From the NCBI RefSeq assembly GCF_036227605.1, contig NZ_CP109487.1, positions 1,054,001 to 1,118,000 of the forward strand: a stretch of 64,000 nucleotides of DNA, written 5' to 3'. The translations under genes were made by a program, and so were the position numbers. The notes below the pieces were generated by a model that saw only the letters and a list, made by a program, of their open reading frames with translations, was not told where the DNA came from and searched no databases. Source of the stretch: Streptomyces sp. NBC_01439 (lineage in GTDB: Bacteria > Actinomycetota > Actinomycetes > Streptomycetales > Streptomycetaceae). This document shows, piece after piece, positions 1,942 to 59,402 of the stretch (the stretch's first letter is position 1; each line of letters begins with the position of its first letter).

Positions 1942-1977
1942 GGGGCCTCCCGAGCCCCCGAGGGGCCACTCGGCACC
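1942..1977. promoter_or_regulatory. Tandem DosR/OsdR-type boxes before USP gene
   Basis: GGGGCCTCCCGAGCCC (1942-1957) and GGGGCCACTCGGCACC (1962-1977) are imperfect 16-bp inverted repeats of the GGGRCC-N4-GGYCCC type with centres exactly 20 bp apart. The nearer one ends 69 bp before the USP start, the geometry seen at most other stress promoters here. Confidence 0.65.
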
Positions 1978-2046
1978 TCGCGATCCGGCACCGTCGGGTC
2001 GAATCTGAAAGGAGAGCCGGGTACTCGATCAGAAGGAGCCGGACAC

Positions 2047-2922
2047 ATGACGCACCGCATCACCGTGGGCCTGGACGGAAAGCCCGAGAGCACCGCCGCC
2101 GCCCGCTGGGCCGGCCGCGAGGCGGAGCTGCGGGGAGCCTCACTGGACCTCGTCCATGCCGAGGAATGGCTGGAGAATCCGCCGCTGCCCGTCACCACCA
2201 CGGAGGAACGCAGACGCTGGGCCACGGAGGTCCTGCGCAAGACGTCCAAAGCGGTCCGCCTCGACCATCCGTCGCTGGAGATCACCACGCGCCGGGTCAG
2301 TGGACTGCCCGACCTCGCTCTCGCGTCCGCCGCCAAGGATTCCGACATGCTGGTGCTCGGCACGCGCGGCCTGGGCTCCGTCGCCGGATTCCTCGTCGGG
2401 TCCGTCGGGACGAACGCGATCGCGGCAACGGAGCGACCCGTCGTCCTCGTACGGTCCGCCGATCGTGAGGGGAACCCGCCCGACGGAGGCCGGGATCGTG
2501 GACCGGTCGTGGCCGGGGTGGACGTTCAGCACCCGTGTGACGGCCTCCTCGCGTTCGCCCTCGAGGAGGCTTCACACCGCGGATGCCCGCTGATCGTCAT
2601 CAACGGATGGTCGCCCCCGCCGATCATGAGCTACTCACCCGTACTCGAGCCCGGGATCAACGAGGAGATCCAGCACGGCATCACCACGGCGCTGGACGGA
2701 ATGCTGGCCCCGTGGCGTGAGAAGTTCCCGACGGTGAGCATCGACGCGCGCGCCACCATCGGCCGGCCCGCGGCCCAGATCCTCGACGCCGCTCGGGAGG
2801 CCGCCCTCGTCGTGGTCGGCCGCCGCATCCGGCGCACCCCGGTCGGCCCCCACATCGGCCCCATCACCCACGCCGTGATGCATCACGCCACCTCGCCGGT
2901 CGCCGTCGTCGCCCACGACTGA
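2047..2922 (+). CDS. Universal stress protein, two Usp domains
   Basis: Protein of 291 residues with two Usp domains (about 3-140 and 155-290). Domain 1 has an intact nucleotide-binding motif, GTRGLGSVAGFLVGS (G-2x-G-9x-GS). Domain 2 is degenerate (GRRIRRTPVGPHIGP), so probably one ATP site per chain. It is a close paralogue of the USP at 33.0 kb (shared VHAEEWLENPPLPVTTTEERRRW). AAGGAGCC lies 8 bases before the ATG. The gene is followed 28 bp later by an Acg-type gene, the same pairing as at 33-34.9 kb. USPs of this class are typical DosR-regulon members; the cellular effect is not known. Confidence 0.93.
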   Translation: MTHRITVGLDGKPESTAAARWAGREAELRGASLDLVHAEEWLENPPLPVTTTEERRRWATEVLRKTSKAVRLDHPSLEITTRRVSGLPDLALASAAKDSDMLVLGTRGLGSVAGFLVGSVGTNAIAATERPVVLVRSADREGNPPDGGRDRGPVVAGVDVQHPCDGLLAFALEEASHRGCPLIVINGWSPPPIMSYSPVLEPGINEEIQHGITTALDGMLAPWREKFPTVSIDARATIGRPAAQILDAAREAALVVVGRRIRRTPVGPHIGPITHAVMHHATSPVAVVAHD

Positions 2923-2950
2923 CGCCGACAGCACAGACAGGAACCGTCCC

Positions 2951-3940
2951 GTGTCCGCACAGCGCTTGGACCCCGAGAGCGTCGTCCCCCTCGTCGAAGA
3001 CGCCGTCGCGGCGCCTTCCATGCACAACGCCCAGCCCTGGAAGTTCGTCCTCAGGCCGAACGCGGCGCTTCTCGAACTGCGCGGCGATCCCGAACGGGCG
3101 ATGCCGCGCGCCGACCCTGACCACCGCGCCCTTCATCTGGGCTGCGGCGCGGCGCTGTTCAACCTGCGGGTATCGGCAGCGTCAGCGGGCTTCGCCGCGG
3201 TCGCGGAGCTCCTTCCCGACGGTCTCGACCCGTGGCTGCTCGCCCGGGTCCGCTTCCAGGCGGCCTCGGACATCGATCGGGACCTGATTCCGCTGCATCC
3301 GGCCGTACGAAGCCGGCACTCCAGCCGCTTCCCATTCACCGAGGAGCAGATCCCGGCTGCCCTGATGGACGCTCTGTGCGCGGCCGCCCGGTTGGAGGGC
3401 TGCCGTCTGGTCGTGCCGGACGCCTGGCACACCGAGACCGTACTCGGCGTGGTCCGCGACTCCGAGCACCGTGAAGCCATTGACCCGGCGCTTCAAGACG
3501 AAACGTCCGCGTGGACCCATCCGGCAGACGGCGGCGAACAGGAGCGGAGCGACGGCATTCCCGTATCCGCGTTCGGCCCCCGCCCCTCCGGCAGGTCCTC
3601 CCCGGTCCGTGACTTCGGCCGGTCACAGCCTGCGTCGGGGCGCAGCTGGGCCGTGTTCGAGGAGCATCCTCAGATCGCCCTGCTGGGCACGTCCGAGGAC
3701 ACCCCTGTGGACTGGCTCCGTGCGGGTCAGGCTCTGGAACGGGTCCTGCTCCAGGCCACCGCCGACGGCCTCGTCAACTCGATGACCTCGCAGCCGCTGG
3801 AATGGCCCGAACTCCGCTGGACGGTGCGGGATCCCGTCGCGCCGATGGGGCACGTCCAGATGGTCATCCGGCTGGGCTACGGACCCCAGGGGCCGGCGAC
3901 TCCCCGCAGGGCGGTCGCGGAATTCCTCGAAGTCGTCTGA
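2951..3940 (+). CDS. Acg-family nitroreductase-like flavin protein
   Basis: Protein of 329 residues beginning at GTG, matching the length and sequence of the paralogue at 33.9 kb. It contains APSMHNAQPWKF near the N-terminus and the late segment SQPLEWPELRWTVRDP typical of the Acg (Rv2032-like) group. These resemble nitroreductases by fold and bind FMN, but are thought to hold the flavin under a lid rather than act as ordinary nitroreductases; Rv2032, Rv3127 and Rv3131 are DosR-regulated. It sits directly behind a USP gene and is probably co-transcribed. Enzymatic substrate is not inferable. Confidence 0.88.
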   Translation: MSAQRLDPESVVPLVEDAVAAPSMHNAQPWKFVLRPNAALLELRGDPERAMPRADPDHRALHLGCGAALFNLRVSAASAGFAAVAELLPDGLDPWLLARVRFQAASDIDRDLIPLHPAVRSRHSSRFPFTEEQIPAALMDALCAAARLEGCRLVVPDAWHTETVLGVVRDSEHREAIDPALQDETSAWTHPADGGEQERSDGIPVSAFGPRPSGRSSPVRDFGRSQPASGRSWAVFEEHPQIALLGTSEDTPVDWLRAGQALERVLLQATADGLVNSMTSQPLEWPELRWTVRDPVAPMGHVQMVIRLGYGPQGPATPRRAVAEFLEVV

Positions 3941-3962: not shown

Positions 3963-4268
3963 CTACGAGGCGGCGGCGTCCAGCCACCCGGTATACGGCT
4001 TGAGCGAGTCCTGCGGGCGTGTCCCCGCTCCGACGGCACCGATGTCGCCGTACGCGGTGCGCTTCATCTGCAGGGCCAGGTCCTCCATGGCCCGGGCGAC
4101 GGCGAGTTCGTCGCCGATCTCGGGAACGTCACTGTCCTGCGGGTTGCAGCGAGCGGTGCCGTGCCCGGTGATCCTGGTGGTGCCGGTGTCGAGTTCCAGT
4201 CGGGCCTTCGTGGTGCGGTCCTCCTCGAACAGGAAGAGCCGGACCTTCCATTCAGCGGTGTGCGACAT
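3963..4268 (-). CDS. DUF1876 domain protein
   Basis: Protein of 101 residues with the full DUF1876 pattern: [26 protein letters not shown] at the start and [16 protein letters not shown] in the middle. The family includes Rv1738 and Rv2632c; Rv1738 is strongly hypoxia-induced and has a fold resembling ribosome hibernation factors, so a role in slowing translation has been proposed for it. The gene overlaps the end of the shortened P-ATPase gene by 17 bases and ends 22 bp from the convergent Acg gene. The paralogue at 52.0 kb has the same neighbours in the same order. Confidence 0.88.
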
Positions 4269-4875
4269 GGCGGGTCTCCCGGAGTCGGTGAGAGGTGTGG
4301 AGGCGGTTTCGACGCGCCCGGCGTCGCAGTTCGTCGGTGCCCCAGACGAGCACCGGGAAGACCGCTATGAGGGCGACGACGTCGAGGGGCAGTGCGGCCG
4401 TACCGAAGATGCCCTGCAGCGGCGGCACGTAGACGAGCGCCGCGGTGAAGAGCCGACCGTCCCGGATCACCGTGGCGTGGGTCGGCAGATAGCGCGCGAG
4501 GGTCTCCACCGCCTGCTCGGCCTGGCGCTCCTGGAGCAGGGCGAAACCCGCGTTGAGGAGGATGACGGCGACGATCGCCCAGCCGAGTACGGCGATGTCC
4601 GCGACGAAGGCCATGGCAGCCGCCGCCCACAGCAGCAGGGCGAGGGGATGGACCAGTTGGCGGACGAGTTCACGTCCCAGCGACGTACGCGCCTTGCGGC
4701 GCACCTCGTTCGGGCCGTACACGGCCAGGCGACGCGCCGCCTCGCGATCGGAGAGCCCCCTCTCCCCAGTTCCCAGTTCGCGACGCAACAGCGGCAGGGG
4801 CTCCAAAGGGTCAAGGGCGCCGCCGGCCTGCGGGCCCGGCTCGGCGGCCTGCGGGCGTGAGGGCGCCTCAGTCAT
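4252..4875 (-). pseudogene. P-type cation ATPase with large in-frame internal deletion
   Basis: The 207-codon open frame has the N-terminal cation-ATPase domain and first membrane helices of the full ATPase at 52.3-55.0 kb (shared LARYLP, then VIRDG), then jumps in frame to its last membrane segment ([24 protein letters not shown]). Almost 690 residues are missing, including the TGES loop, the DKTGT phosphorylation site and the nucleotide domain, so it cannot pump ions. Because the frame is intact, a membrane miniprotein of about four helices could still be made. It overlaps its upstream neighbour by 8 bases and its downstream neighbour by 17, so it may persist to keep translational coupling. 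Confidence 0.85.
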
Positions 4876-5482
4876 CACCGGCCTCCCGGCCATGCCGCAG
4901 TCGGCCGGACCAGCCCGGTTCGACGCGTTCCCATCCGTGCTCCCACTCCGCGAGGTTGCGTGCTTGGAGGAGGCGCAGCCGCAGGAGGACGACCCCGGCG
5001 CTCGCGAGTGCGATCAGGGCCGCGCTGCCCGCTCCGGCTGCAACTGCGTCCGACGCCGCCGTGGCCCCGGTTCGGGGAGCTGAGGCCACCGCACCGTTGT
5101 CGTCGACCCACAGGGTGACGGTGCGTCCCACGGGTGTCCCTGCCAGGACGGGAAGGGCGGAGGTGTGGCGGGTTCCCGAGGGAAACTCCCACCGCGCACG
5201 CGCTGTCGTGGTGACCGCGCCCGCCCGGGTCGAGGAGTGAGGCGCGGGCTCGCCGATCGTGGTCGCTTTCACGAGGTGGCGGTGCCGTGCCTGCTCCGCG
5301 GCCGCGCGCAGTCCGTTGTCCACAGCGGTCAGTCCCACCTCGACCCCGCAGACCACGGCGAGAACGCACGACAGCACGAAGGCGGCGATCCAGCGGCTGC
5401 GCGTACGATCCGTCGCCCGCCGGAGCGGGTTGGCCTGAGCATGACGCCTGTGCCCTGGACCGGACGAGCTTCGGTGGAACAT
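4868..5482 (-). CDS. Rv1733c-like two-helix membrane protein
   Basis: Protein of 204 residues. An Arg-rich N-terminus is followed by a membrane helix (about residues 34-58), an extracytoplasmic domain containing [16 protein letters not shown], a second helix (about 155-177) and a basic C-terminal tail with [11 protein letters not shown]. This architecture matches the Rv1733c family, a DosR-regulon membrane protein of unknown function. The paralogue at 55.0 kb has the same ends and neighbours. The gene lies between flavodoxin and the deleted ATPase and overlaps the latter by 8 bases. Confidence 0.8.
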
Positions 5483-5516
5483 GCCACACCTCCGCGCTGT
5501 AACGGTGCCGATCCGC

Positions 5517-6020
5517 TCAGTGGGCAGCGGCGAGTTCGGCACTGATGTGATGGGCCCAGCTCTGGATCTGCTCCGGATTGCGGAAGTCGCCGCCCTTGCC
5601 CGCCCGGACCATGGCCCGGGCGATCAAGCCCGGCGTGCCCGAGGTGATGCTGCCGCCGAAGGTCCGGTGCTCACGCGCCCCGATGCGCTCCATCTCCCGG
5701 GCCACGGCGGGCACGGGCGGGATCTCGTGCTGCTCCGCGCTGCTGTCGACCGGGCCACTGCTGAACAGCCAGACCGGCCGGTGCTTGAGGTAGTCGGCGT
5801 TGCGTTCCGCGCAACGCTTGGCCTTGCCGCTCCAGTGACCGGCGTAGAGGGCACCGCCCAGCACCACGGCGTCGTACCCCCGCACGTCCTTCACGTCGTC
5901 GGCGGGAAGCACAGTGGCATCGAGACCGTCCTCCCGGAGGGTCCGGCCGATCTGTGAGGCGATGCCGGCCGTCGCTCCGTGCTTGCTGCCGTAGGCCACG
6001 AGCACTCTCTTCTGCGTCAT
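5517..6020 (-). CDS. Flavodoxin-domain protein
   Basis: Protein of 167 residues. The start MTQKRVLVAYGSKHGATAGIA provides the flavodoxin FMN-phosphate loop, and YDAVVLGGALYAGHW is the second flavin-contact region. It resembles the protoporphyrinogen-oxidase-like (HemG-type) single-domain flavodoxins and is very similar to the copy at 55.7 kb. It is probably a cytosolic FMN electron carrier or oxidoreductase. The gene is first in the minus-strand block that ends with DUF1876. Unlike the other copy it is not preceded by hsp20. Confidence 0.85.
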   Translation of the reverse strand: MTQKRVLVAYGSKHGATAGIASQIGRTLREDGLDATVLPADDVKDVRGYDAVVLGGALYAGHWSGKAKRCAERNADYLKHRPVWLFSSGPVDSSAEQHEIPPVPAVAREMERIGAREHRTFGGSITSGTPGLIARAMVRAGKGGDFRNPEQIQSWAHHISAELAAAH

Positions 6021-6364
6021 GACGACTCTCCGTTCCCACTCATCACTGGCCGCTCCGGCCGGACGCATCCGCCGCAGAGCTCCGAGTGGTCCTTCTCTTC
6101 CTCTCAGTCTGCTCCGCGCGGAAGGCGCTGCGCCTCCGCTCGATCCGGGCACCTGGCATCGTGCGCCGGCCCTTCCGACCTCCTGCGGGCACCCTTCGGG
6201 TGTCTGCCTTCACGCTCCTCCGGAAGGAAGCCGTTCACATGGGTCGCATGGGGCCGTGCGGGGACCGTTCGGCCCTCGTCGACACGCAGCGGCCGCGCGG
6301 ACCGGGCTCCTGCCGTGATGCGGGAAGTGGGCCAGTTGCTGACCGACGAAGGACGGATGCCTCC
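6021..6364. other. Intergenic region with one strong box and a probable CBS-gene remnant
   Basis: This 344-bp gap contains a weak box, AGCTCCGAGTGGTCCT (6078-6093), 57 bp before the flavodoxin start. Further on it has a strong box, GGGACCGTTCGGCCCT (6261-6276), with a poor partner 20 bp upstream (GGGTCGCATGGGGCCG). After that, a plus-strand stretch from 6318 reads MREVGQLLTDEGRM, resembling the first residues of the type-C CBS proteins (MKHREVGELMTREVV). It runs into the 3-prime end of the GH65 gene. I read this as the promoter and first codons of a lost CBS gene. No intact gene is visible. Confidence 0.5.
6261..6276. promoter_or_regulatory. DosR/OsdR-type box, orphan
   Basis: GGGACCGTTCGGCCCT is a near-perfect copy of the window-wide inverted repeat. 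It lies 241 bp from the flavodoxin start, too far for the usual geometry, but 41 bp before the CBS-like remnant at 6318. It is therefore probably left over from a deleted gene. Confidence 0.6.
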
Positions 6365-11263: not shown

Positions 11264-11335
11264 GATGCCGCCCTTCCCTTCCCATCTCGTCAGGTGTCGG
11301 TACCTCCAGCCTGACTTCTTGGGCGGCAGCGTGCA

Positions 11336-11372
11336 CGGGCCGGACGGCCCCGCATCGGGGCCGGTCGGGCCC
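11336..11372. promoter_or_regulatory. Tandem DosR/OsdR-type boxes before ADH operon
   Basis: CGGGCCGGACGGCCCC (11336-11351) and GGGGCCGGTCGGGCCC (11357-11372) have centres 21 bp apart. The nearer one is 72 bp before the ADH ATG on the minus strand. A third, weak candidate follows at 11379-11394. No other gene start is near. Confidence 0.7.
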
Positions 11373-12098: not shown

Positions 12099-12136
12099 TG
12101 GGCCGGACGGCCCTCAGCCGGAGGCCTGCCGGGCCC
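12099..12136. promoter_or_regulatory. DosR/OsdR-type boxes in divergent promoter
   Basis: TGGGCCGGACGGCCCT (12099-12114) is strong and GAGGCCTGCCGGGCCC (12121-12136) moderate; centres are 22 bp apart. They sit between the USP (95 bp away) and the beta-CASP gene (70 bp away), so they could serve both. Confidence 0.6.
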
Positions 12137-13637: not shown

Positions 13638-13653
13638 GGGACCGGTCGGCCCT
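13638..13653. promoter_or_regulatory. DosR/OsdR-type box before CBS gene
   Basis: GGGACCGGTCGGCCCT is one of the best matches in the window. It starts 2 bp after the beta-CASP stop and lies 78 bp before an upstream in-frame ATG (13732), or 177 bp before the conserved CBS start. No clear partner box is seen. Confidence 0.65.
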
Positions 13654-17327: not shown

Positions 17328-17483
17328 CCCTGCCACCAACCCCTTCGTCGCCCCCTCCTCTCGGGGGTGCTGATCGTGTCCGCGCGGACACGCGTCGTGC
17401 CGCGCGAACGCAACCGCCGGATCCATGGAATGCGCTGCCTTCTCTGTACTCAGTCTGTCTGGCCGGTCGGTCGGCCTCCAGGA

Positions 17484-17519
17484 GGGGCCGGTGGGCCCTT
17501 CCTGGGGCCAGTGGGCCAA
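17484..17519. promoter_or_regulatory. Tandem DosR/OsdR-type boxes before truncated PPDK
   Basis: GGGGCCGGTGGGCCCT (17484-17499) and GGGGCCAGTGGGCCAA (17504-17519), centres exactly 20 bp apart. They lie 156 bp before the conserved PPDK start or 57 bp before the alternative upstream ATG on the minus strand. Confidence 0.65.
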
Positions 17520-18042: not shown

Positions 18043-18079
18043 AGGGCCGTTAGTCCTATGCTCAGGGCCGTGTCCGCCT
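18043..18079. promoter_or_regulatory. DosR/OsdR-type boxes upstream of SHOCT gene
   Basis: AGGGCCGTTAGTCCTA (18043-18058) and a weaker AGGGCCGTGTCCGCCT (18064-18079), centres 21 bp apart. The nearer is 113 bp before the SHOCT gene (minus strand). The methyltransferase start is 225 bp away in the other direction. Confidence 0.45.
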
Positions 18080-20835: not shown

Positions 20836-20901
20836 GGTTCCTCCTCAGGGAGCCGCCAGGGGTCGGGGTCTCAGGTCGGCTCTTCTGACTTCTCGGTCAG
20901 G

Positions 20902-20937
20902 ACGGCCCTTCAGTACCTGGCAGGGACCGGTGGTCCT
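20902..20937. promoter_or_regulatory. DosR/OsdR-type box (plus weak partner) before USP pair
   Basis: GGGACCGGTGGTCCT (20923-20937) has two strong half-sites with a 3-bp instead of a 4-bp spacer. A weak partner, ACGGCCCTTCAGTACC (20902-20917), lies about 20 bp away on the USP side. The nearest edge is 66 bp before the USP ATG (minus strand). Confidence 0.5.
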
Positions 20938-20970: not shown

Positions 20971-21007
20971 AGGTCCGATCGGGCCCGGCTCCGGACCATT
21001 CGGCCCT
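20971..21007. promoter_or_regulatory. Tandem DosR/OsdR-type boxes before CBS gene
   Basis: AGGTCCGATCGGGCCC (20971-20986) and CGGACCATTCGGCCCT (20992-21007), centres 21 bp apart, 90 bp before the CBS start on the plus strand. With the pair at 20902-20937 this makes a four-box divergent control region. Confidence 0.65.
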
Positions 21008-21097
21008 CCTCGTCTCTTGGCATGGGGCGGATCGTGGTTTTAGGCGTCCTCCGGCGTTCCCGTCCGGGTGGATCGCCGTGACGGCAGGAGGTGCCTC

Positions 21098-27391: not shown

Positions 27392-27427
27392 GGGGCTGTT
27401 CGGTCCCACATGGGGCCACTCGGCCCC
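27392..27427. promoter_or_regulatory. Tandem DosR/OsdR-type boxes before USP gene
   Basis: GGGGCTGTTCGGTCCC (27392-27407) and GGGGCCACTCGGCCCC (27412-27427) are two of the best copies, centres exactly 20 bp apart, 71 bp before the USP ATG. They begin 2 bp after the ACP stop, so the operon boundary is tight. Confidence 0.75.
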
Positions 27428-27498
27428 TCCTCGGTCGCCGCGCCGCAGGTGACGCTGGAAGAGGGCCACGGTCCTGCGGCACCCAAGGAGGTCTCGCC

Positions 27499-29225: not shown

Positions 29226-29262
29226 AGGGCCGATCAGCCCGAAATGATCCCCTGGCGGCCCT
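29226..29262. promoter_or_regulatory. DosR/OsdR-type box with weak partner before CBS gene
   Basis: AGGGCCGATCAGCCCG (29226-29241) and a half-site-like ATCCCCTGGCGGCCCT (29247-29262), centres 21 bp apart, 60 bp before the CBS start. The second is conserved at the paralogous promoter near 460, which supports function despite its weak left half. Confidence 0.5.
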
Positions 29263-32851: not shown

Positions 32852-32887
32852 CGGGCCGGTCGGCCCCCCGAGGGGCCGACCGGCCCC
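32852..32887. promoter_or_regulatory. Tandem DosR/OsdR-type boxes, best-conserved pair
   Basis: CGGGCCGGTCGGCCCC (32852-32867) and GGGGCCGACCGGCCCC (32872-32887) are near-perfect or perfect palindromes with centres exactly 20 bp apart, 75 bp before the USP start. They may also act on the HRP1-like gene on the other strand, 220 bp away. Confidence 0.78.
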
Positions 32888-32962
32888 TCAACAGGAGGCC
32901 GTCGGGCAGTCAGTCTGGAGTGAGCGGGAAAACTCCGATCCGCGAACAGGGAGATGGAGACC

Positions 32963-39749: not shown

Positions 39750-39750
39750 C

Positions 39751-42205: not shown

Positions 42206-42247
42206 GGTGCACCTCTCGGTCTCCACGTGCCTAGATCCGGCAGCATG

Positions 42248-42942: not shown

Positions 42943-42958
42943 GGGACCGTTCGGCACT
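42943..42958. promoter_or_regulatory. DosR/OsdR-type box before hydrogenase operon
   Basis: GGGACCGTTCGGCACT, a good single copy. It lies 158 bp before the maturation-protease start (minus strand), farther than usual, which hints at a longer leader or an upstream start codon. It is also 69 bp from the SulP-gene stop. Confidence 0.6.
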
Positions 42959-46091: not shown

Positions 46092-46168
46092 CACGCGTCC
46101 CTCCGCTCCGGCCCTGTCTTGTCGGCCTCGGCTTCACTCAGCGTCTTTTCCGTCTCGCACGCCGTGCC

Positions 46169-46216
46169 AGGGCCGAATGGTCCCCTGTCCTGCGGAATCG
46201 GGGGCCGGTCGGCCCA
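46169..46216. promoter_or_regulatory. Two DosR/OsdR-type boxes in divergent promoter
   Basis: AGGGCCGAATGGTCCC (46169-46184) lies 77 bp before the PPOX gene (minus). GGGGCCGGTCGGCCCA (46201-46216) faces the plus side. Their centres are 32 bp apart, so they probably belong to separate promoters. A palindrome-like GGCACCTGCAGTGCC follows 21 bp after the second. Confidence 0.65.
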
Positions 46217-46291
46217 TCCCCGGCACCTGCAGTGCCGCTCAGACTTGAATCGGAATCGGCCGGAGGCCGCCATGAGGACCACTCCCCCTAC

Positions 46292-47170: not shown

Positions 47171-47875
47171 ATGTCCGACGTACCGGCAGCCTCCTACGAG
47201 GGCACCGTCCGGGTCTTCCTCTTGGACGACCACGAGGTCGTACGCCGCGGCCTGTACGACCTGCTGGACGCGGAGCCGGACATCGAGGTCGTCGGTGAGG
47301 CGTCCACCGCCGCGCAGGCGCTGACCCGCGGACCGGCGCTGCGCCCGGACGTCGCCGTACTCGACGTCCGACTGCCCGACGGCGACGGGATCACCGTGTG
47401 CCGCGAGCTGCGCTCGCGCATGCCGGAACTCGCCTGCTTGATGCTGACCTCGTTCGATGACGAGGACGCGCTGCTCGACGCGATCATGGCTGGTGCGGCC
47501 GGCTACGTCCTCAAGCAGATCAAGGGGTCCGACCTCGTCTCGGCCGTACGGACGGTGGCGACCGGGCAGTCGATGCTGGACCCGGCGACGACCGCCCGCC
47601 TCATGCACTCCCTGCGGGACCCGGAGGCCGTCAAGGCCCCGGATGACGATCGGCTGGCCGCTCTCTCCGAGCGGGAGCGTTCCGTACTCGAACTGATCGG
47701 CGAGGGCCTCACCAACGCGCAGATCGCCAAGCGGCTGTACCTGTCCGAGAAGACGGTCAAGAACCACATCTCAAGGCTGCTGGGCAAGCTGGGGGTGGAG
47801 CGTCGGGTGCAGGCCGCTGTCATCGCCACGCAGGTCCATGAACACGAGCCGGAGCACGGCAAGGGCCGGAGCTGA
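47171..47875 (+). CDS. DosR/OsdR-like NarL-family response regulator
   Basis: Protein of 234 residues. Receiver domain (about 12-130): acidic pair LDD (19-20), phospho-acceptor Asp65 in [16 protein letters not shown] and Lys115. LuxR/NarL HTH (about 160-222): [52 protein letters not shown], almost the DosR recognition helix ([26 protein letters not shown]). I infer that it binds the GGGRCC-type inverted repeats in this window. The ATG after AGGGGCGTAC is preferred; an ATG 13 codons upstream is open but lacks a ribosome site. Its own upstream region lacks a clear box. It is convergent with its presumed kinase. Confidence 0.92.
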
Positions 47876-47892
47876 GTGACTACGGGGCGTGC

Positions 47893-49644
47893 TCACCTGG
47901 AGGGTGGGCAGTGGCCTCCACCGCCCAGTGGGACCCGCCATTCCAGCTTTGTGCCCTGCCCGGTCGGCCCGTGCGCCGAAACGGAGAGTTCACCACCCAG
48001 GCGTTCGGCCCGTTCACTGAGATTGCGCAGCCCGCTGCGACGACCTCCCTCCGCCATTCCCACTCCGTCGTCGGTGACCAGTACGGTCAGTACGCCCTCG
48101 ACGGCTGCGATGGACACTTCCGCCCGGCTTGCCCTCGCATGCCGGGCGACGTTGGTGAGCGCCTCCCCGACCACGGCGAGTGCCTCGTCCGCGGTCTCGG
48201 CGGGTACGTCGGTGTCGATCAGGCCCTCCATCCGCAGGGCCGGGGCGAACCCGAGTACCTGGGCAGCCTCCTCGACGGCCTGAACGGCACGGAGCCGCAG
48301 CTTCGGCGGCACCCCGGATACTTCGTGTTCACGAAGCCCGAAGATCGTCGACCGAATGATCTTGATGGTGGCATCCAGGTCGTCGATCGCCCGGGCAAGT
48401 CGTTCCGAAGCCTCGGGATGCTCGACGAAGGGTTGCGCGCTCTGCAGGGTCATACCTGTGGCGAAGAGGCGCTGGATGGCGAGATCGTGCAGGTCACGGG
48501 CAATGCGGTCGTGATCCTCCAGCATGCTCATCTGCTCGGTGTCCCGGCGCCGGTCTGCGAGCTCCAGCGCCACGGCGGCCTGGCCGGCGAAGCCGGGCAG
48601 GGCTGCGATCTCGGCGCGGGCGAACGCCGGGCGGCCGCGCCTGCGGGCCAGGATGAGGACGCCGCTCAGCTTCTCCTTGGTGCCGAACGTGACGGCGACG
48701 GCGGGGCCGAAACCCTTCCACCGTTCCGGCTGCACGGTGATCCGGTCGTCGGCCCCGACGTCGGCCACGGTGATCAGTCCGTCCTCCTCGCCGAGGGCAG
48801 CGGCGGCCAGGGTGCCTTCACTGCTGGGCAACACGATGCCGCGATGTGCCTCGGCGCCCTCCCCCAGGGCTAGCGAGCCGCGCAGCTCCCCGCTCTGGCC
48901 CACAAGGTAGAACACACCGATGTCGGCGCCCGTGATGTCGCGAGCTCGCTCCAACATCCCCTCCAGCACCTCCGTCTCGGCCGAGCCGGAGAGCAGAGCA
49001 CGGGTGAAGTCGGAGCTGGCGGCCAGCCAGCGCTCCCGGAGGCGTACCTCTTCGAAGAGGCGGGCGTTCTCGACGGCAATGCCGGCCGCCACCGCCAGCG
49101 TGGACAGGACCGCCTCGTCCTCCTCGTCGAAGTCGATACCACCCCGCTTCTCGGTCATGTAGAGGTTGCCGAACACGTCCTCGCGAACCCGGATGGGGAC
49201 GCCGAGGAAGGAGTGCATCGGGGGGTGGTGGGGAGGGAAGCCGTAGGAGGCGGGGTGACCGGACAATTCCGAGAGCCGGAGCGGCTCGGGGTGCCGGATG
49301 AGCTGGCCGAGGATGCCGTGGCCGGAGGGCAGGTCGCCGATCTCGGCCCGGAGGTCGTCGCTGATGCCGACAGGAAGGAACTGGGCGAGCTTCTGGTCGT
49401 CACCGATGACGCCCAGCGCTCCGTACTCCGCGTCCACCAGGACGACAGCGGCTTCGACGATGCCACTCAGGACCTGTGGCAGATCGAGCTCCCGACCGAC
49501 GGACATCACAGCCTCGAGGAGCCCGTTCAGCCGGTCCCGGGTGCCGCGCACCTCGTCGATACGAACCTGGAGCTCCTCGAGCAGTTCGTCCAGCCGGAGC
49601 CGCGGAAGCCCAGGACGCACGGGACCCAGCTCGTCCCCGCCCAT
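47893..49644 (-). CDS. DosS/DosT-like GAF-GAF histidine kinase
   Basis: Protein of 583 residues. Order: N-terminal coiled segment (about 15-45), GAF-A (about 50-205), GAF-B (about 215-365), HisKA_3 with DHDRIARDLHDLAIQRLF (phospho-acceptor His386), and HATPase (VVGEALTNVARHA, TDDGVGM, GLRNLSERAERLGGE). In GAF-A, HPASYGFPPHHPPMHSFLGVPIRVRED aligns with the DosS segment around its haem ligand His149, giving His140 here. This predicts a haem-based oxygen or redox sensor. No membrane helices are present. It ends 17 bp from the response-regulator stop, tail to tail. Confidence 0.92.
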   Translation of the reverse strand: MGGDELGPVRPGLPRLRLDELLEELQVRIDEVRGTRDRLNGLLEAVMSVGRELDLPQVLSGIVEAAVVLVDAEYGALGVIGDDQKLAQFLPVGISDDLRAEIGDLPSGHGILGQLIRHPEPLRLSELSGHPASYGFPPHHPPMHSFLGVPIRVREDVFGNLYMTEKRGGIDFDEEDEAVLSTLAVAAGIAVENARLFEEVRLRERWLAASSDFTRALLSGSAETEVLEGMLERARDITGADIGVFYLVGQSGELRGSLALGEGAEAHRGIVLPSSEGTLAAAALGEEDGLITVADVGADDRITVQPERWKGFGPAVAVTFGTKEKLSGVLILARRRGRPAFARAEIAALPGFAGQAAVALELADRRRDTEQMSMLEDHDRIARDLHDLAIQRLFATGMTLQSAQPFVEHPEASERLARAIDDLDATIKIIRSTIFGLREHEVSGVPPKLRLRAVQAVEEAAQVLGFAPALRMEGLIDTDVPAETADEALAVVGEALTNVARHARASRAEVSIAAVEGVLTVLVTDDGVGMAEGGRRSGLRNLSERAERLGGELSVSAHGPTGQGTKLEWRVPLGGGGHCPPSR

Positions 49645-52010: not shown

Positions 52011-52310
52011 TCACGCTGTGGTGTCCAGCCACCCGCTGTACGGCTTGAGGGACTCCTGCAGGGACGGAGCTCCGGCAGCCTGCATGTCGCCGTAGGCGGC
52101 TCGCTTCATCTGGAGGGCGAGATCCTCCATGGCACGAGCGACCGCGAGTTCGTCGCCGATCTCCGGGACGTCGTCGTCCTGGGGCGCGCAGCGGGCGGTG
52201 CCGTGGCCCGTGAGCCGGTTCGTACCCGTGTCGAGTTCCAGGCGTGCCTTCGTCGTGTGGTCCTCCTCGAAGAGGTAGAGACGGACCTTCCATTCGGCTG
52301 TGTGTGACAT
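52011..52310 (-). CDS. DUF1876 domain protein
   Basis: Protein of 99 residues, close paralogue of the one at 4.0 kb ([49 protein letters not shown]). Belongs to the Rv1738 family, linked to hypoxic translation arrest by structure in the mycobacterial protein. It follows the P-ATPase gene by 18 bp and is the last gene of the hsp20 operon. GGAGGCTCCC precedes the ATG. Confidence 0.88.
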   Translation of the reverse strand: MSHTAEWKVRLYLFEEDHTTKARLELDTGTNRLTGHGTARCAPQDDDVPEIGDELAVARAMEDLALQMKRAAYGDMQAAGAPSLQESLKPYSGWLDTTA

Positions 52311-52328
52311 GGGAGCCTCCGGACGGGT

Positions 52329-55013
52329 TCAGGCGTTCGTGCTTCGGCGAGTGCGTCGGGCCCAGCGCCGGAATTCATCGGTGCCCCACACGAGGACCGG
52401 GAAGGTGGCGATGAGCGCGACGACGTCAAGGGAGAGGGCTGCGGTGCCGAACAGGTCTTGCAACGGCGGCGCGTAGACGAGCGCCGCGGCGAAGACCAGC
52501 TCGAAGGCGATGCCCGCGAGGAGCAGGTGGTTGCTGAACAGGCCGATCTCGCGCAGAGCAGCGTGGTCGGTGCGTGCGGCCATCGCCGTGCCGACCTGAC
52601 AGGTGACGATGCCGGCGAAAGTGGCGGTGGTCGCGGTGACGTACGCGTGGTGGAGGGGGGTGCCGGGGCCGGTGGGGTCGCCGGGGTGCCAGCCCGCCCG
52701 CCAGAGCACGTAGAAGAACGCGGTCATGACCAGGGCGGCGGACACCGTGCCGAGCCATCCCCAGCTCCGGATGAGCATGTCGCGGGAGATGACCCCCTGC
52801 GAGCTCGGTCGCGGCGGACGGCTCATGACGCCCGGCTCGGCCCGTTCCCGGCCGAGGGCGAGGGCGGGGAGGGTCTCGGTGCCGAGGTCGATGGCGAGGA
52901 TCTGCAGGACGGTCAGCGGCAGGGGGACGGTGCCGGCCGAGAGTGCGAACACCAGGAAGGGCACGACCTCGGGGGTGGCGTGGGCGAAGATGTAGACGAT
53001 GAACTTGCGGACGTTGTCGTATACGCGGCGCCCGGATTCGATGGCGGCGACGATGGTGGCGAAGTTGTCGTCGGTCAGCACCATCGTGGACGCTTCGCGT
53101 GCCACGTCGGTGCCGGACCGGCCCATCGCGACCCCGATGTGCGCACGGTGAAGTGCCGGGGCGTCGTTGACACCGTCGCCGGTCATGGCCACGATCTGCC
53201 CGTGTGCGCGCAGCGTGTCGGCCACGTGCAGCTTGGTCTCCGGAGAAGAGCGGGCGAAAACGACCTCGGCATCGCCTTGTGCCAGGAGCTGGTCGAGCTC
53301 CTGGTCACCCACCGTCTCGGACTGGGCCACCACCGTGAGGCGCGGTACTCCGATCCCGACCTCCCGCGCGACGGCGGCCGCGGTGGCGCCGTTGTCACCC
53401 GTGACGATATGGACCCGGACGCCCGCGTCGTGACAGCGGCGGACGGCCTCCGCGACCTCGGGCCGCGGAGGGTCGTACAGGCCGACGAGCCCCAGAAGGC
53501 GCAGACCGCTCTCCGCATCGTGGCGCCGCGCCGGCGTCGCAGCCCCCTTCGGCAGGTCGCGCACGGCGACGGCCAGGACACGCATGCCGTCGTGGGCGAG
53601 CCGGTCCGCGGCGGCGAGCGCGGCAGTGGAGTCCCCGCCGTCAAGGGCGCCCACCACCGACTCTGGCGCGCCTTTGACGATGACGCGGGCGCCGTCCGGT
53701 TCCGCCTGCTGCACGACGGACATCAGGCGCAAGCGGGGGTCGAAACGGAAGAGGACCTGGCGGTCGGCGTCCCTCCTGTCGAGGTCGATGGGGGCGCCGT
53801 GGGCACCGGCTCCTTCGACCAGGGCGATCTCGGTCGGGTCCCCGTGCAGGTGGCCCTGGGCATCCCGCGTGACCGTGGTACACAGGGCCCCTGCACGGGC
53901 GAGTTCACCTGCCCAGGGGCCTTTGCTCGTACCGTGTTCAGGTGTCCACACAGTCTGGAGCCGCATGCGGTTCCGGGTGAGGGTGCCGGTCTTGTCGGTG
54001 CAGATCACGTTAGTGGACCCGAGAGTTTCGACGGCGCTCAGCCGCTTGACCACAGCCCCCTGGCGGGCGAGGGCCCGTACCCCGACGGCGAGGGCGAGGG
54101 TGATGATCGGCAGCAGGCCCTCGGGCACGTTGGCGACCAGCAGGCCGATGGCGAAGATCAGCGAGTCGGTCAGCGGGAGTCCTACGGCCACGCCTGCCAC
54201 GAGGAACACCGCACCCATGGCGACCGCGACGGCGGCGATCAGCCAGGCGACCTTCTTTACCTGCCGCTCCAAGGGGCTGGGGTCGCGCTGGGTGCGCTGG
54301 CTGAGTGCGGCGATCCGTCCGAGTTCGGTGTGGTCGCCCGTGGCGAACACGATCGCCTGGGCCTGGCCCTCGGTGCAGGCAGTACCGCTGAAGACGAGGT
54401 TCGGCTCCTGGAGCAGCGGAGCCCCTGCGAGACCGGGGCCGGCGACGCGTTCGGCGGGGGCGGACTCCCCTGTCAGCATCGACAGGTCGACCTCGATACC
54501 GCCGTCTGTGAGGCGTCCATCGGCGGGGACCTTGGCGCCCTCTTCGAGGACGATGAGGTCGCCCGGCACGAGCTCGCGCGACTCGACGGCCGACGGTTGG
54601 CCGTCGCGGATCACCCATGCGTACTCGGGCAGATACCGGGCCAGGGTCTCCACTGCCTGCTCCGCCTGGCGCTCCTGCAGGAGCGCGAAGGCGGCGTTGA
54701 CGATGACCACGGCGACGATGGCCCAGCCGAGGACCGCTATGTCCGCCACGAAGGCCAGTGCGGCAGCCGCCCAGAGCAGCATGGCCAGCGGGTGGACGAG
54801 CTGGCGGACGATCTCCCGGCCCAGGGAGGTACGGGCCTTGCGGCGGACCTCGTTGGGGCCGTAGACGGCGAGGCGGCGGGCCGCCTCGCGCGCGGAGAGT
54901 CCACTCGGCCCGGTGCCGAGTTCGCGCCTCAGGAGCGGCAACGGTTCGAGGGGGTCAGGGCTCAGGGGCAGCCCGTTGGCCGGAAAGGGGGGCCGGGTGG
55001 CTGCCTCAGTCAT
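52329..55013 (-). CDS. P-type cation-transporting ATPase, CtpF-like
   Basis: Protein of 894 residues with all P2-type features: cation-ATPase N domain (about 15-85), [12 protein letters not shown] actuator loop, phosphorylation site [11 protein letters not shown] (Asp340), nucleotide-binding [20 protein letters not shown] hinge and C-terminal membrane helices. It resembles CtpF (Rv1997), a DosR-regulon calcium-type pump; the ion is not certain. It overlaps the Rv1733c-like gene by 8 bases. A copy with an internal deletion of almost 690 residues lies at 4.3 kb. Confidence 0.92.
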
Positions 55014-55662
55014 CGCCAGGTCCCTTTTCGCGTCGCAGCCTGCCGGACCAGCGCGGCTCCACGGCCTCCCACTCGTGCTCCCACTGGGCCAGGCTGCGGG
55101 TCTCGACGTGGAGCAGACGAAGGCGGACCACTGCCCCTGTGGCGAGGGCGAGCAGGCTGAAGGATCCGATTCCCGCGACTGCGGCCGTGAGGACGCGTTG
55201 GGCTTCGGCCGACGGCGCCTGCGCCTCCCTGCCCGCGTCATCGACCCAGATCGTGACCGTCCGGCCTGCCGGAGTGCCGAACGGGACGGAGATCGTGGCG
55301 GAGTGCTGGTGAGCAGCCGGGTACTCCCAAACGGCCGGAGCAACCGTCCGGGAGGTGCCGCCGGAGCGGTTGGAGACCGCGCGCTCCACGGCGCCGACCG
55401 TCGTCGCCTCGATCCGGTGCCGGTGGCGGGCCGCTTCCTGGGCACTGCGGCTTTCGGCGTCCCAGACGGCCGTCGTGACGACGGCGCCGCAGGACAGGGC
55501 GATCAGGAAGGAGAGCACGAAGGCGATGTTCCAGCGGCGCCGGGTCCGGTCGGCCGGACGACGCAGCTCGTTCGGACGTCCGCCGAACAGCCGACGCACG
55601 CGGTCGGCCGTCGCCGGGCGCGATCGGGTGGGCCCGTCTCCGGGCGTGCCGGGCTCGGACAT
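55006..55662 (-). CDS. Rv1733c-like two-helix membrane protein
   Basis: Protein of 218 residues: basic N-terminus, helix 1 (about 46-68, [23 protein letters not shown]), external domain with [17 protein letters not shown], helix 2 (about 168-190) and tail [17 protein letters not shown]. Paralogue of the protein at 4.9 kb. Rv1733c itself is a DosR-regulon antigen of unknown role; the constant pairing with a P-type ATPase here suggests a pump-associated function, which is inference. Confidence 0.82.
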
Positions 55663-55696
55663 CGTGCACCTCCGCGCTCTGGTACTGCCCGGCCGC

Positions 55697-56200
55697 TCAG
55701 CGGGGAGCGGCGAGTTCGGCGCTGATGTGGTGGGCCCACGTCCGGATCCGCTCGGGATTGCGGAAGTCTCCTCCCTTGCCCGCGCGGACCATGGCCCGGG
55801 CGATGAAGCCGGGCGTACTGGCGGTGATGCTGCCGCCGAAGGTGATGTGCTCGCGTGCGCCGAGGCGCTCCATCTCCCGGGCCACCGCAGGCACCGGCGC
55901 GATGTCGTGCTGCTCGGCGGAACTGTCCACGGGGCCGCTGCTGAACAGGTAGACCGGGCGGTGCTGGAGGTAGTGCTCGTTGCGTTCGGCGCAGCGCTTG
56001 GCCTTGCCGCTCCAGTGCCCGGCGTACAGGGCGCCGCCGAGCACCACTGCGTCGTACCCGCGTACGTCGTCCACGTCGTCGGCGGGGACCACGACGGCGT
56101 CGAGGCCGTCCTCACGCAGGGTCCTGCCGATCTCGGACGCGATTCCGGCGGTCGCACCGTGCTTGGTGCCGTAGGCGACCAGAACGCGCTTGGACGTCAT
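55697..56200 (-). CDS. Flavodoxin-domain protein
   Basis: Protein of 167 residues; MTSKRVLVAYGTKHGATAGIASEIG is the FMN-phosphate loop and YDAVVLGGALYAGHWSGKAKRC the second flavin loop. Nearly collinear with the copy at 5.5 kb. The ATG overlaps the hsp20 stop (ATGA). It may supply reducing power to oxygen-sensitive enzymes or act as a HemG-like oxidoreductase. Partner unknown. Confidence 0.87.
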   Translation of the reverse strand: MTSKRVLVAYGTKHGATAGIASEIGRTLREDGLDAVVVPADDVDDVRGYDAVVLGGALYAGHWSGKAKRCAERNEHYLQHRPVYLFSSGPVDSSAEQHDIAPVPAVAREMERLGAREHITFGGSITASTPGFIARAMVRAGKGGDFRNPERIRTWAHHISAELAAPR

Positions 56201-56655: not shown

Positions 56656-56711
56656 GGTGTGCTCCGTTCCGGCGCCCGATCAGCGCCTTCATGCGTTGCC
56701 TTCCTCCACTT

Positions 56712-59153
56712 TCACGAGACGGACGGCTGCTCCGCTTGAGACCATCGGGTCCCTGATGGGGCCGTTCGGCCCTCCCCGTACCGGACCGATTCGGCGGCGG
56801 CCACGTGGTGCTTGACCGCGGCGAAGCTGTCCGGGGCGACGGAGATGGAGTCGATCCCTGCCTTGACCAGGAACTCCGTGAAGGCGGGGTCGTCGCTCGG
56901 GCGCTGGCCACAGAGGCCGACGGGGCGGCCCGCTGCCTGGGCACGAGGGACGAGGATCTCGATGCTCCGGGTGACCGCCGGGTTGGTCTCGTCGAAGACG
57001 TGGGCGAGGGCTTCGGAGTCGCGGTCGACACCCAGGGTGAGCTGGGTGAGGTCGTTGCTGCCGATGGAGAAACCGTCGAAGCGTTCGGCGAAGTCCTGGG
57101 CCAGGATGACGTTGGCGGGGATCTCCGCCATGACGTAGACCTTCAGCCCGTTCTCCCCACGGCGGAGGCCTTCCTCAGCCATGACACCAAGCACCCGGTC
57201 GGCCTCTTCGAGGCTGCGACAGAAGGGGATCATGACGACGACGTTGGCCAGGCCCATCTCGTCGCGGACCCGGCGCAGGGCCCGGCACTCGAGGGCGAAG
57301 CCCTCCCGGTATCCGTCGCTGTAGTAGCGGCTCGCACCCCGCCAGCCGATCATCGGGTTGGCCTCGACCGGCTCGAACGGCCGACCTCCGACAAGCCGCG
57401 CGTACTCGTTGGTCTTGAAGTCGCTGGTCCGTACGATGACGGGGGCGGGCCACCGGGAGGCGGCGATCCGGGCGATGCCGTACGCCAGGCGATCGGTGAA
57501 GTAGCGGGTGCGGTCGAGGTATCCCTCGGTGAGCTGGTCGACGGCGCAGCGGTCGGCGGGGTCCAGGCGTTCGGGGTGCAGCAGGGCCATGGGGTGGACC
57601 TTGACCTGGTGCGCCACTATGAACTCCAGCCGGGCCAGGCCGACACCATCGGCCGGCAGGCGCCACCACCGGAAGGCGGCGGAGGGGTCGGCGAGGTTGA
57701 GCATGACGTGCGTCCGGGTGGCGGCGATGTCCGCGAGGTCGGTCTCGGTCTCCTCATAGGTGAGCAGCCCTTCGTAGACCTTGCCACGTCCGCCTTCGGC
57801 ACAGGAGACGGTCACCTTCTGTCCGTCGTGCAGGGCCTGAGTCGCACGGCTGGTGCCGACGACGGCGGGGACGCCGAGTTCGCGGCTGACGATCGCAGCG
57901 TGGGACGTGCGGCCGCCGTGGTCGGTGACGATGGCGGAGGCCCGCTTCATGATCGGTTCCCAGTCCGGGTCGGTGATGCCGGTGACGAGCACCCCGCCGG
58001 ACGGGAAGCGGTCGAGGTCGACGGGCGAGTCCAGGACGACGACGGGCCCGCTGCCGATGGCCTCGCCGACAGCGATGCCGTCCACGAGAGGCGTACCTGG
58101 CACGGCCGTCAGGCGGCAGCGGCGCAGGGTGGAGGCGGCGCGGCGGGACTGAACGGTCTCGGGCCGGGCCTGCACGATCCACAGGTCGCCGGTGAGGCCG
58201 TCTTTGGCCCATTCCAGGTCCATGGGGCAGCCGTAGTGCCCTTCGACGGTCAGCGCCCAGTCGGCGAGGAGCCTCACTTCGGTGTCGTTCAGGACCCTCT
58301 GCAAGCGCTCCTCGTCGGTGGTATCAACGGTCCGCGTCAGTCCATGTTCCGCATAGACCGCCTTCCGCCGCTTCGCTCCGACACGTACGTCGATCAGCGG
58401 GTCCAGATCCGGGTCCTTCAGGCTCGGCTTGAAGACGGTGTACTCGTCGGGGTCGACCTGCCCGCTGACGACCGTCTCGCCCAGTCCGCACGCCGCGCTG
58501 ATGACGATGACCTCGGGGAATCCGCTCTCCGGGTCGAGGGTGAAGATCACCCCGGCACCGGCCAGGTCCGACCGGACCATGATTTGAACACCGACCGAGA
58601 GAGCGACCTGGAGGTGGTCGAAGCCCATCCGCTCCCGGTAGTCGATGGCTCGATCGGTGTAGAGGGACGCATAGCAGCGATGCACCGACTCCAGCAATTG
58701 GGCGGTCCCGCGCACGTTCAGGTAGGTCTCCTGCTGGCCTGCGAAGCTCGCCTCCGGCAGGTCCTCGGCGGTGGCGCTGCTGCGTACGGCAACCTCGGGG
58801 TCCGCGCGGCCTTCGTCGCGCCCCAGCTGCTCGTACGCCGAGACGATCTCGGCCCGCAGCCCTGGGGGCAGCGGCTCGGCGAGGGTCATCGACCGTATCG
58901 CGGCCCCGACCTCATCGAGCGCGGCGCCCTCGTGCAGGCGCGCGATCTGTTCCTCGATCCGCCCCCGGAGTCCGTGTCCGTCCAGCAGCTCTCCGTACGC
59001 GGCGGCCGTCGTTGCGAACCCCGGAGGGACGCGCACGCCGGCATCGGCCAGGTGGGCGGTCATCTCACCCAGTGAGGCGTTCTTACCCCCGACACTGCCG
59101 ACTTCCTGCCGGCCGAGTTCCGCGAACGGTATGACGCGCCGCGTGCTTGCCAT
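56712..59153 (-). CDS. ppsA: Phosphoenolpyruvate synthase
   Basis: Protein of 813 residues. ATP-grasp domain (about 10-340; SVGGKNASLGEMTAHLADAGVRVPPGFATTA, FAGQQETYLNVRG, VTLDPESGFP-type region), phosphohistidine domain with VTDHGGRTSHAAIVSRELG (His418, equivalent to His421 of E. coli PpsA), and PEP-binding barrel with GSNDLTQLTLGVDRDS and GLCGQRPSDDPAF. It catalyses pyruvate + ATP to PEP + AMP + Pi and would support gluconeogenesis or ATP sparing in dormancy. The last 20 or so residues (EGRTAPSGTRWSQAEQ) are a non-conserved tail overlapping the hsp20 operators. Start MASTRRVIPF. Confidence 0.93.
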   Translation of the reverse strand: MASTRRVIPFAELGRQEVGSVGGKNASLGEMTAHLADAGVRVPPGFATTAAAYGELLDGHGLRGRIEEQIARLHEGAALDEVGAAIRSMTLAEPLPPGLRAEIVSAYEQLGRDEGRADPEVAVRSSATAEDLPEASFAGQQETYLNVRGTAQLLESVHRCYASLYTDRAIDYRERMGFDHLQVALSVGVQIMVRSDLAGAGVIFTLDPESGFPEVIVISAACGLGETVVSGQVDPDEYTVFKPSLKDPDLDPLIDVRVGAKRRKAVYAEHGLTRTVDTTDEERLQRVLNDTEVRLLADWALTVEGHYGCPMDLEWAKDGLTGDLWIVQARPETVQSRRAASTLRRCRLTAVPGTPLVDGIAVGEAIGSGPVVVLDSPVDLDRFPSGGVLVTGITDPDWEPIMKRASAIVTDHGGRTSHAAIVSRELGVPAVVGTSRATQALHDGQKVTVSCAEGGRGKVYEGLLTYEETETDLADIAATRTHVMLNLADPSAAFRWWRLPADGVGLARLEFIVAHQVKVHPMALLHPERLDPADRCAVDQLTEGYLDRTRYFTDRLAYGIARIAASRWPAPVIVRTSDFKTNEYARLVGGRPFEPVEANPMIGWRGASRYYSDGYREGFALECRALRRVRDEMGLANVVVMIPFCRSLEEADRVLGVMAEEGLRRGENGLKVYVMAEIPANVILAQDFAERFDGFSIGSNDLTQLTLGVDRDSEALAHVFDETNPAVTRSIEILVPRAQAAGRPVGLCGQRPSDDPAFTEFLVKAGIDSISVAPDSFAAVKHHVAAAESVRYGEGRTAPSGTRWSQAEQPSVS
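56738..56773. promoter_or_regulatory. Tandem DosR/OsdR-type boxes before hsp20, inside PEP synthase 3-prime end
   Basis: GAGACCATCGGGTCCC (56738-56753) and GGGGCCGTTCGGCCCT (56758-56773), centres exactly 20 bp apart, 82 bp before the hsp20 ATG. They overlap the last 20 or so codons of the PEP synthase gene, which encode a non-conserved tail. Confidence 0.75.
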
Positions 59154-59167
59154 GACGACCTCCGGGC

Positions 59168-59263
59168 TCAATACGGGAGCGGGCGGCCGGACGGAGTGCG
59201 CAGGTCCGGCGGCGCGGGCTTGTGGGGCTGCTTCTGGCGGGACTGGATCCTGATGCGCTGCAT
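59168..59263 (-). CDS. Possible 31-residue leader peptide upstream of PEP synthase
   Basis: A short frame starting MQRIRIQSRQKQPHKPAPP ends 14 bp before the PEP synthase ATG. It is very basic and Pro-rich, and GAGGTGGCCACG precedes its ATG at a good distance. The nearest boxes are 98 bp upstream, the usual distance from a box to a first start codon here, whereas they are 208 bp from PEP synthase. Could be a leader or coupling peptide. No homologue is recognised. Confidence 0.35.
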   Translation of the reverse strand: MQRIRIQSRQKQPHKPAPPDLRTPSGRPLPY

Positions 59264-59361
59264 CGTGGCCACCTCTGGGAAACGGAGCCCGTATCGGCAT
59301 CCGGATTCCACGATCACACCGGGAGGTGGCTGCACCCCAGTGCCGAGAGGTGCAGCGGCAA

Positions 59362-59402
59362 GGGGCCGACCGGGCCTCACCGGGGAGGGGCCGACCGGCC
59401 CA
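59362..59402. promoter_or_regulatory. Two DosR/OsdR-type boxes in NAPRTase / PEP synthase divergent promoter
   Basis: GGGGCCGACCGGGCCT (59362-59377) and GGGGCCGACCGGCCCA (59387-59402), both excellent matches; centres 25 bp apart rather than 20-22. The nearer is 65 bp before the NAPRTase ATG. They could also serve PEP synthase on the other strand. Confidence 0.7.

Follow-up and report, generated by a model that had tools for sequence, protein, structure and literature searches.

The stretch analyzed here, hereafter the window, comprises 64,000 nucleotides of Streptomyces sp. NBC_01439 (bases 1054001-1118000 of contig NZ_CP109487.1; GC content, 69.5%) in a 9.58-Mb genome that consists of a single contig. 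It contains an island of genes of the universal stress protein (USP), CBS, Rv2632c-like, Hsp20, DUF1918, NAPRTase, cation ATPase and nitroreductase families. These families are linked to the DosR regulon, with which the gene content of the island agrees in kind. A 16-bp palindrome recurs between its genes, which include those of an OsdR/DevR-family response regulator and a DevS/OsdK-like sensor kinase (Table 1). The best solved-structure match of the regulator is DevR (PDB 3c3w, E = 2.4e-76), with an identical EKTVKN segment in the helix-turn-helix (HTH). The kinase strongly matched 2vzw and DevS-type GAF structures, and its HPPM segment is conserved; because of this family resemblance, oxygen or nitric oxide (NO) is the likely signal. 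Both the palindrome and the regulator class are already known, since a 16-bp box, AGGGCCGATCGGCCCT, has been published for OsdR, which is the counterpart in Streptomyces of the dormancy regulator known from tuberculosis, and the window regulator has DevR as its best structural match.

This box was obtained in 2016 by applying MEME to 12 regions upstream of osdR genes in Streptomyces (Urem et al. 2016, PMC5069765), and electrophoretic mobility shift assays (EMSA) with wild-type and mutated uspA probes showed that phosphorylated S. coelicolor OsdR binds in a manner dependent on the conserved bases (PMC5069765). The predicted targets of OsdR (SCO0204) include universal stress proteins, an alcohol dehydrogenase (ADH), PPDK, a nitroreductase and a pyridoxamine 5'-phosphate oxidase, and they cluster near osdR (PMC5069765); under the name DevR, the S. 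coelicolor protein also binds the narG2 upstream region (PMC4766573).

We scanned the window and other stretches of the genome with a matrix built from the 25 S. coelicolor OsdR sites in Table 1 of the former paper (PMC5069765), which was made symmetrical and from which the window sequence was excluded to avoid circularity. The window holds 18 matches of at least 12 bits, 15 of which are intergenic (17% of the window is non-coding by our own gene calls), whereas 50 column-permuted matrices yielded 0.6 intergenic matches on average, and at most 8, in the same sequence. The repeated palindrome reported in a preliminary description of this DNA is therefore real. Nor is the motif equally dense elsewhere in the genome, a possibility that this description had raised against itself: 16 intergenic sites of at least 12 bits were found in 15.1 kb (four 20-kb stretches, 1.04-1.12 Mb), compared with 8 in 144.9 kb of controls (40 stretches of the genome, 800 kb in all), a 19-fold higher density. 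Its five best examples are palindromes where it had placed them, but the exact fit to its consensus, GGGRCCGNNCGGYCCC, is limited to 32872-32887; those at 13638, 27412, 56758 and 59387 are each one base off, and 1942-1957 is three bases off. Counting sites of at least 9 bits together with weak partners 19-23 bp away, we obtained 25 sites in 15 clusters, one site being an overlapping register of its neighbor; the earlier totals of about 18 loci and close to 30 copies need weaker sites such as 1942 and 1962. As a genome-wide marker, the bare 14-mer GGRCCGNNCGGYCC was uninformative outside the islands (107 sites, compared with 109 for the reversed control), and a looser 15-mer pattern gave 240 sites, compared with 394 for its reversed control.

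We compared 61 Streptomyces genomes including the window's own, one of which was ambiguous and left out. Exact AGGGCCGNNCGGCCC matches numbered a median of 12 in the 40 genomes whose OsdR was of the island type (by our own cut-off, a best E below 1e-85) and 7 in the 20 genomes without it (P = 2.7e-5), whereas the reversed pattern, used as a control, did not differ between the two groups (P = 0.62). For the comparison of loci, we chose 20 genomes from the 55 of the genus, other than the window's own, that gave a match, and 20 from the matching genomes of other families of the class, favoring strong matches on long contigs. A later set of 80 more loci was fetched after the -10 rule described below had been fixed; 4 overlapping loci were dropped, leaving 76, as were near-identical promoters. 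At least one intergenic box of at least 12 bits was present in 20 of the 20 other Streptomyces loci and in 75 of the 76 later loci.

The half-sites of the box are mostly separated by 4 bp. The dyad-centered, intergenic form GGGMC-N4-GKCCC occurred 32 times in the strain's own islands, 43 times in the 20 genus loci, 264 times in the 76 later loci and 26 times in the 20 loci of other families, compared with 8 times in the (larger) controls; the own islands exceeded the controls about elevenfold. GGGAC-N6-GTCCC was found once in the own islands, once in the 20 genus loci and 5 times in the later loci. The GGGRC-N6 form proposed in the preliminary description occurred 7 times in 58.9 kb of own islands and 10 times in 163.2 kb of controls, 9 times in the genus loci and not at all in the other families. 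Although this represents an about twofold excess over control, the counts rule out the longer spacer as the main register, and the proposal of a spacer 2 bp longer than that of the mycobacterial box is not supported, as the 4-bp spacer dominates here as in mycobacteria. The hspX probe in a 2026 M. tuberculosis DosR paper also includes GGGAC-N4-GTCCC (PMC12919924). Because of this and of the dominance of N4 in all sets, the apparent 2-bp extension is mainly a register effect, the longer register being a minor overlap of the true 4-bp one. A spacer-5 class is nevertheless real in Streptomyces, with 16 sites in the own islands, 27 in the genus loci, none in the other families and 70 in the later loci (neighboring spacers, about 6-31). 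The half-site in the own islands is mainly GGGCC; symmetrical GGGAC-N4-GTCCC was absent from the own islands and the 20 genus loci but occurred 6 times in the later loci and 11 times in the 20 loci of other families. Proximal boxes carried the GGGACC-type A variant on the gene-distal side (15 versus 2 in one set, and 18 versus 2 in the later loci).

Downstream of the gene-nearest box, expectation-maximisation applied separately to 55 own-island promoters and 78 promoters from the 20 Streptomyces loci gave A-N-N-V-T-G-R-A, and the positioned element most commonly placed its A at 24 and its T at 28 nt after the proximal box. In the -10 element of sigma-70 promoters, -11A and -7T have this same spacing. 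A...T at 23-25 nt after the box was found in 23 of the 55 own-island promoters (3.7 expected), in 51 of the 78 promoters of the genus loci (5.5 expected) and, with the rule already fixed, in 176 of the 307 promoters of the later loci (12.4 expected, P = 1.5e-158). Among anchors that were not deduplicated, it followed 0 of 13 in control regions, 11 of 175 set by permuted matrices and 137 of 328 real boxes taken without the tandem rule. The gap between the proximal box and the -10-like NAnnnT was 22-24 nt in three sequence sets, in none of which was -12T conserved. Numbered from -7, the box is predicted to lie at -51 to -36, with its center near -43.5 and over the -35 position, the start sites themselves being predicted. 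Neither a TANNNT -10 nor a TTGAC -35 was found at a fixed distance from the box. Partner boxes lay 20, 21 and 22 bp upstream in 31, 26 and 23 places among the 176 promoters, accounting for 80 of the 122 distances to a partner that fell within 16-59 bp, and longer box spacings, over all 307 promoters, tended toward the 10.5-bp helix phase (R = 0.30, P about 0.0015, n = 71). In the S. coelicolor table, the SCO0517 sites at -248 and -268 are likewise 20 bp apart (PMC5069765), and in the M. tuberculosis DevR targets that were analyzed, the sites are packed closely together and the one nearest the start overlaps -35 (PMC3029386). The parts of PMC5069765 on which we draw describe neither a tandem spacing nor a -10 distance for OsdR, and literature searches returned no title on OsdR promoter spacing.

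The motif, its clustering, the tandem spacing, the near-fixed distance to a -10-like element and the recurrence in other Streptomyces and related loci are established by computation. We consider it highly probable that response regulators of the OsdR/DevR family, namely the regulator at 47.2 kb and, very probably, its paralogues in other islands, use the palindrome as their operator, and that the box mediates DevR-like activation from over the -35 position; the placement of the box relative to the -10-like element supports an activator that replaces -35 recognition. Under this hypothesis, the phosphorylated regulator dimer would bind the 16-bp AGGGCCGA/TCGGCCCT-like box, of which the gene-nearest copy, at about -51 to -36, would adjoin and cover the place of the -35. 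The bound dimer would then recruit RNA polymerase to a -10 in which -11A and -7T are retained. Because this -10 has no conserved -12T and no accompanying -35 match, the promoter would be near silent without the dimer, which would substitute for the recognition of a -35 where the -10 is too weak to function by itself. Where a second dimer is present, 20-22 bp farther upstream, it may lie on the same helix face and stabilize the first cooperatively. Binding by the strain's own regulator, the positions of the transcription starts, the way in which activation works and hypoxia or NO as the signal are inferred.

A protein search identified OsdR paralogues outside the window at 954161 (69% identical), 1222665 (77%), 8439152 (89%) and, on the core chromosome, 4817924 (63%), together with a partial match at 1243648 (67%) and a fragment at 1248740 (90%). 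The near-full-length paralogues with at least 63% identity number five, the window regulator among them; four carry EKTVKN and one EKTIKN. Box clusters at 0.94-0.96, 1.04-1.14, 1.20-1.26 and 8.42-8.44 Mb are located where OsdR paralogues lie; box islands surround three paralogues besides the window regulator, and boxes lie upstream of those at 954 and 1223 kb. The preliminary description had assigned the palindrome to the regulator at 47.2 kb, which is upheld as to the OsdR/DevR type of operator but not as to a single cognate regulator, given five paralogues and islands around three others. If the 47.2-kb regulator alone read the window boxes and each paralogue had its own distinct operator, its place inside a dense island would be explained, as would the box pair 46169/46201, which two divergent promoters share; a CBS gene and, 109 bp behind it, the regulator lie downstream of one of them. 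We nevertheless regard this as improbable, as the HTH segment is EKTVKN or EKTIKN across all five paralogues, the same matrix finds boxes upstream of two of them, and OsdK also phosphorylates the orphan regulator SCO3818, according to a review (PMC9739842).

Several observations weigh against a common operator of the OsdR/DevR type with a fixed promoter geometry. A -10 at 23-25 nt was lacking in 14 of the 20 boxed regions of the window, a poorer result than in the other sets, and in 131 of the 307 held-out promoters. The distance rule was weak in other families of the class, holding in 12 of 56 (4.4 expected) and 8 of 38 (3.1 expected) cases. Moreover, no box lies upstream of the core paralogue near 4.82 Mb (best score, 2.6 bits within 500 bp), and boxes do not cluster in the 80 kb around it, where no intergenic site of at least 12 bits was found.

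The -10-like element might instead be recognized by an alternative sigma factor with a preference for G or C at -12, so that OsdR and a stress sigma would both gate the promoters. T occupied -12 in 1 of 85 positioned elements and then in 3 of 176 in the later loci, and the bases around -7 (T, then G-R) are conserved, which favors this possibility. However, TA is rare anyway, T preceding A...T in 12 of 222 places elsewhere in the regions (difference, P = 0.065), and special avoidance of T at -12 was rejected; because this rarity mostly explains the low counts, T at -12 is not conserved, and we make no stronger claim. The GGA downstream of the -10 resembles a primary-sigma discriminator favorable to sigma region 1.2, which would argue for a primary-type sigma. 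On balance, we consider such double gating unlikely. That the palindromes are transcript hairpins or terminators is hardly credible: they are GC-rich inverted repeats and two lie right behind stop codons (13638, 27392), but neither the 20-22-bp tandem phasing, nor the near-fixed distance to a -10-like element, nor the sharing of the pair 46169/46201 by divergent promoters, nor the match to the EMSA-tested box (PMC5069765) would be expected of them.

Within the window, a box was present in 20 of the 49 gene-start regions (operon-internal starts included), so that the claim that it marks nearly all stress promoters was too strong. The USP genes at 2047, 19076, 36508 and 50128 had a best upstream score of at most 4.9 with the published-site matrix and no box. 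The reported absence of the box from the OsmC gene, the multicopper oxidase gene and the acs operon was borne out, with best upstream scores of -1.6 (3.1 over a wider stretch), 3.6 and -4.7, respectively; as a boxed CBS gene in the same orientation precedes the acs operon by 121 bp, read-through from that gene is possible. Six of the 20 boxed regions fit the -10 rule (ADH, two USP, two CBS and the PPOX-family gene); that of hsp20 was added by eye, and at gene start 17336 an element lies at 27 nt, also by eye.

Table 1. Regulatory genes, OsdR boxes and putative -10 elements in the window
Feature	Position	Strand	Score (bits)	Context
OsdR-like box	427..442		9.6	Upstream of CBS-type gene 515
OsdR box	6261..6276		16.2	Upstream of flavodoxin-like gene 5517-6020 (named by eye)
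Putative -10 CAGGCT	11308..11313	-		ADH; measured from proximal box
Alternative putative -10 CACGCT	11328..11333			ADH; chosen in region count, measured from distal box
OsdR box, proximal	11336..11351		15.4	ADH gene (by Pfam)
OsdR box, distal	11357..11372		13.8	ADH gene; 21 bp from 11336
OsdR box	12099..12114		16.8	USP gene 11554
Weak partner box	12121..12136		5.1	22 bp from 12099
OsdR box	13638..13653		15.2	Upstream of CBS gene 13831
OsdR box	17484..17499		15.5	Upstream of PPDK-like fragment 16359-17336 (named by eye)
OsdR-like box	18043..18058		9.9	Between genes 17645-17929 and 18305-18970
OsdR-like box	20894..20909		9.2	Upstream of USP 19933-20835
OsdR box	20971..20986		13.2	Between USP and CBS genes
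OsdR box, proximal	20992..21007		10.9	CBS 21098; 21 bp from 20971
Putative -10 GATCGT	21030..21035	+		CBS 21098
OsdR box, distal	27392..27407		10.5	Paired with 27412
OsdR box, proximal	27412..27427		9.0	USP 27499
Putative -10 GACGCT	27451..27456	+		USP 27499
OsdR box	29226..29241		15.4	Upstream of CBS gene run from 29323
OsdR box, distal	32852..32867		16.0	Paired with 32872
OsdR box, proximal	32872..32887		17.4	USP 32963
Putative -10 CAGTCT	32911..32916	+		USP 32963
OsdR box	42943..42958		12.2	Upstream of hydrogenase-type gene run starting at 42784
Putative -10 GACGCT	46140..46145	-		PPOX-family gene
OsdR box, proximal	46169..46184		12.3	PPOX-family gene 46091 (-), Pfam
OsdR box, proximal	46201..46216		15.7	CBS 46417 and, behind it, regulator
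Putative -10 CAGACT	46240..46245	+		CBS-regulator transcript
OsdR/DevR-family response regulator (receiver, GerE/LuxR HTH)	47171..47875	+		Pfam Response_reg, GerE; PDB 3c3w
DevS/OsdK-like sensor kinase (GAF, HisKA_3, HATPase_c)	47893..49644	-		Pfam; convergent with regulator
Putative -10 GAAAGT	56708..56713	-		hsp20; read by eye, in no count
Weak partner box	56738..56753		<3	Read by eye; 20 bp nearer hsp20 than 56758
OsdR box	56758..56773		20.2	Inside 3' end of PPDK reading frame, upstream of hsp20
OsdR box	59362..59377		15.5	Between PPDK and NAPRTase genes
OsdR box, proximal	59387..59402		15.7	NAPRTase 59468

Several further features of these loci were observed. The single box at 42943 lies ahead of a hydrogenase-type gene run (37570-42784) that includes an Fe-S protein and a stand-alone cNMP-binding protein. 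Paralogous cassettes of Rv2632c-like, cation ATPase, membrane protein and flavodoxin-like genes, partly named by eye, occupy 3963-6020 and 52011-56200, and the cation ATPase frame has 207 aa in the former versus 894 aa in the latter. Compared by eye with its paralogues, the CBS-BON gene at 13831-14485 appears to be broken into two reading frames. The PPDK-like frame at 16359-17336 (named by eye) has 325 aa, compared with 813 aa at 56712-59153, and still has a strong box upstream. Outside the window, the segments at about 951-956 and 1240-1245 kb appear to be a duplication with near-identical boxes and an OsdR paralogue in each, the second matched from residue 53 only; a kinase match with one in-frame TGA is present in each segment.

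The window resembles the S. coelicolor OsdR system in the 16-bp palindrome, in the fit of its sites to the published site set and in the similar kinds of targets near the regulator. It differs in having a hydrogenase-type gene run under a box, and its genome has several box islands with paralogous regulators. The regulator and kinase genes are convergent at 47171-49644 and again at about 8.437-8.440 Mb, and do not form an operon, whereas the order given for SCO0204/0203 is response regulator-histidine kinase (PMC9739842). With the M. tuberculosis DevR/DosR system, the window shares GGGNC half-sites 4 bp apart (dyad-centered), EKTVKN in the HTH and close packing of sites; the proximal site overlaps -35 in the DevR promoters analyzed, and from the predicted starts it would lie at -51 to -36 here. 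In contrast, GGGAC on both sides was absent from the own islands, GGGCC is the main half-site, and the spacer-5 class is additional.

What looks new is that the box keeps an almost constant distance to an unusual promoter element and that one genome has several regulator copies beside such sites. We are inclined, with some reserve, to regard the OsdR promoters of Streptomyces and close relatives as a promoter class, with boxes often paired 20-22 bp apart, an asymmetric proximal box and, after 22-24 nt, a -35-less NAnnnT that precedes G-R-A and lacks a conserved -12T. This one grammar may be read by several paralogous regulators located in different islands, which would make a multi-input dormancy network rather than a single two-component system. 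A known but loosely defined motif thereby becomes a rule on promoters from which start sites, operon heads and regulon membership can be predicted for Streptomyces genomes, and the operator of the tuberculosis type of dormancy control appears with its sequence changed and its geometry kept. Since one genome can have several regulator copies next to operators of one kind, the outcome of knocking out a single regulator would be difficult to interpret.

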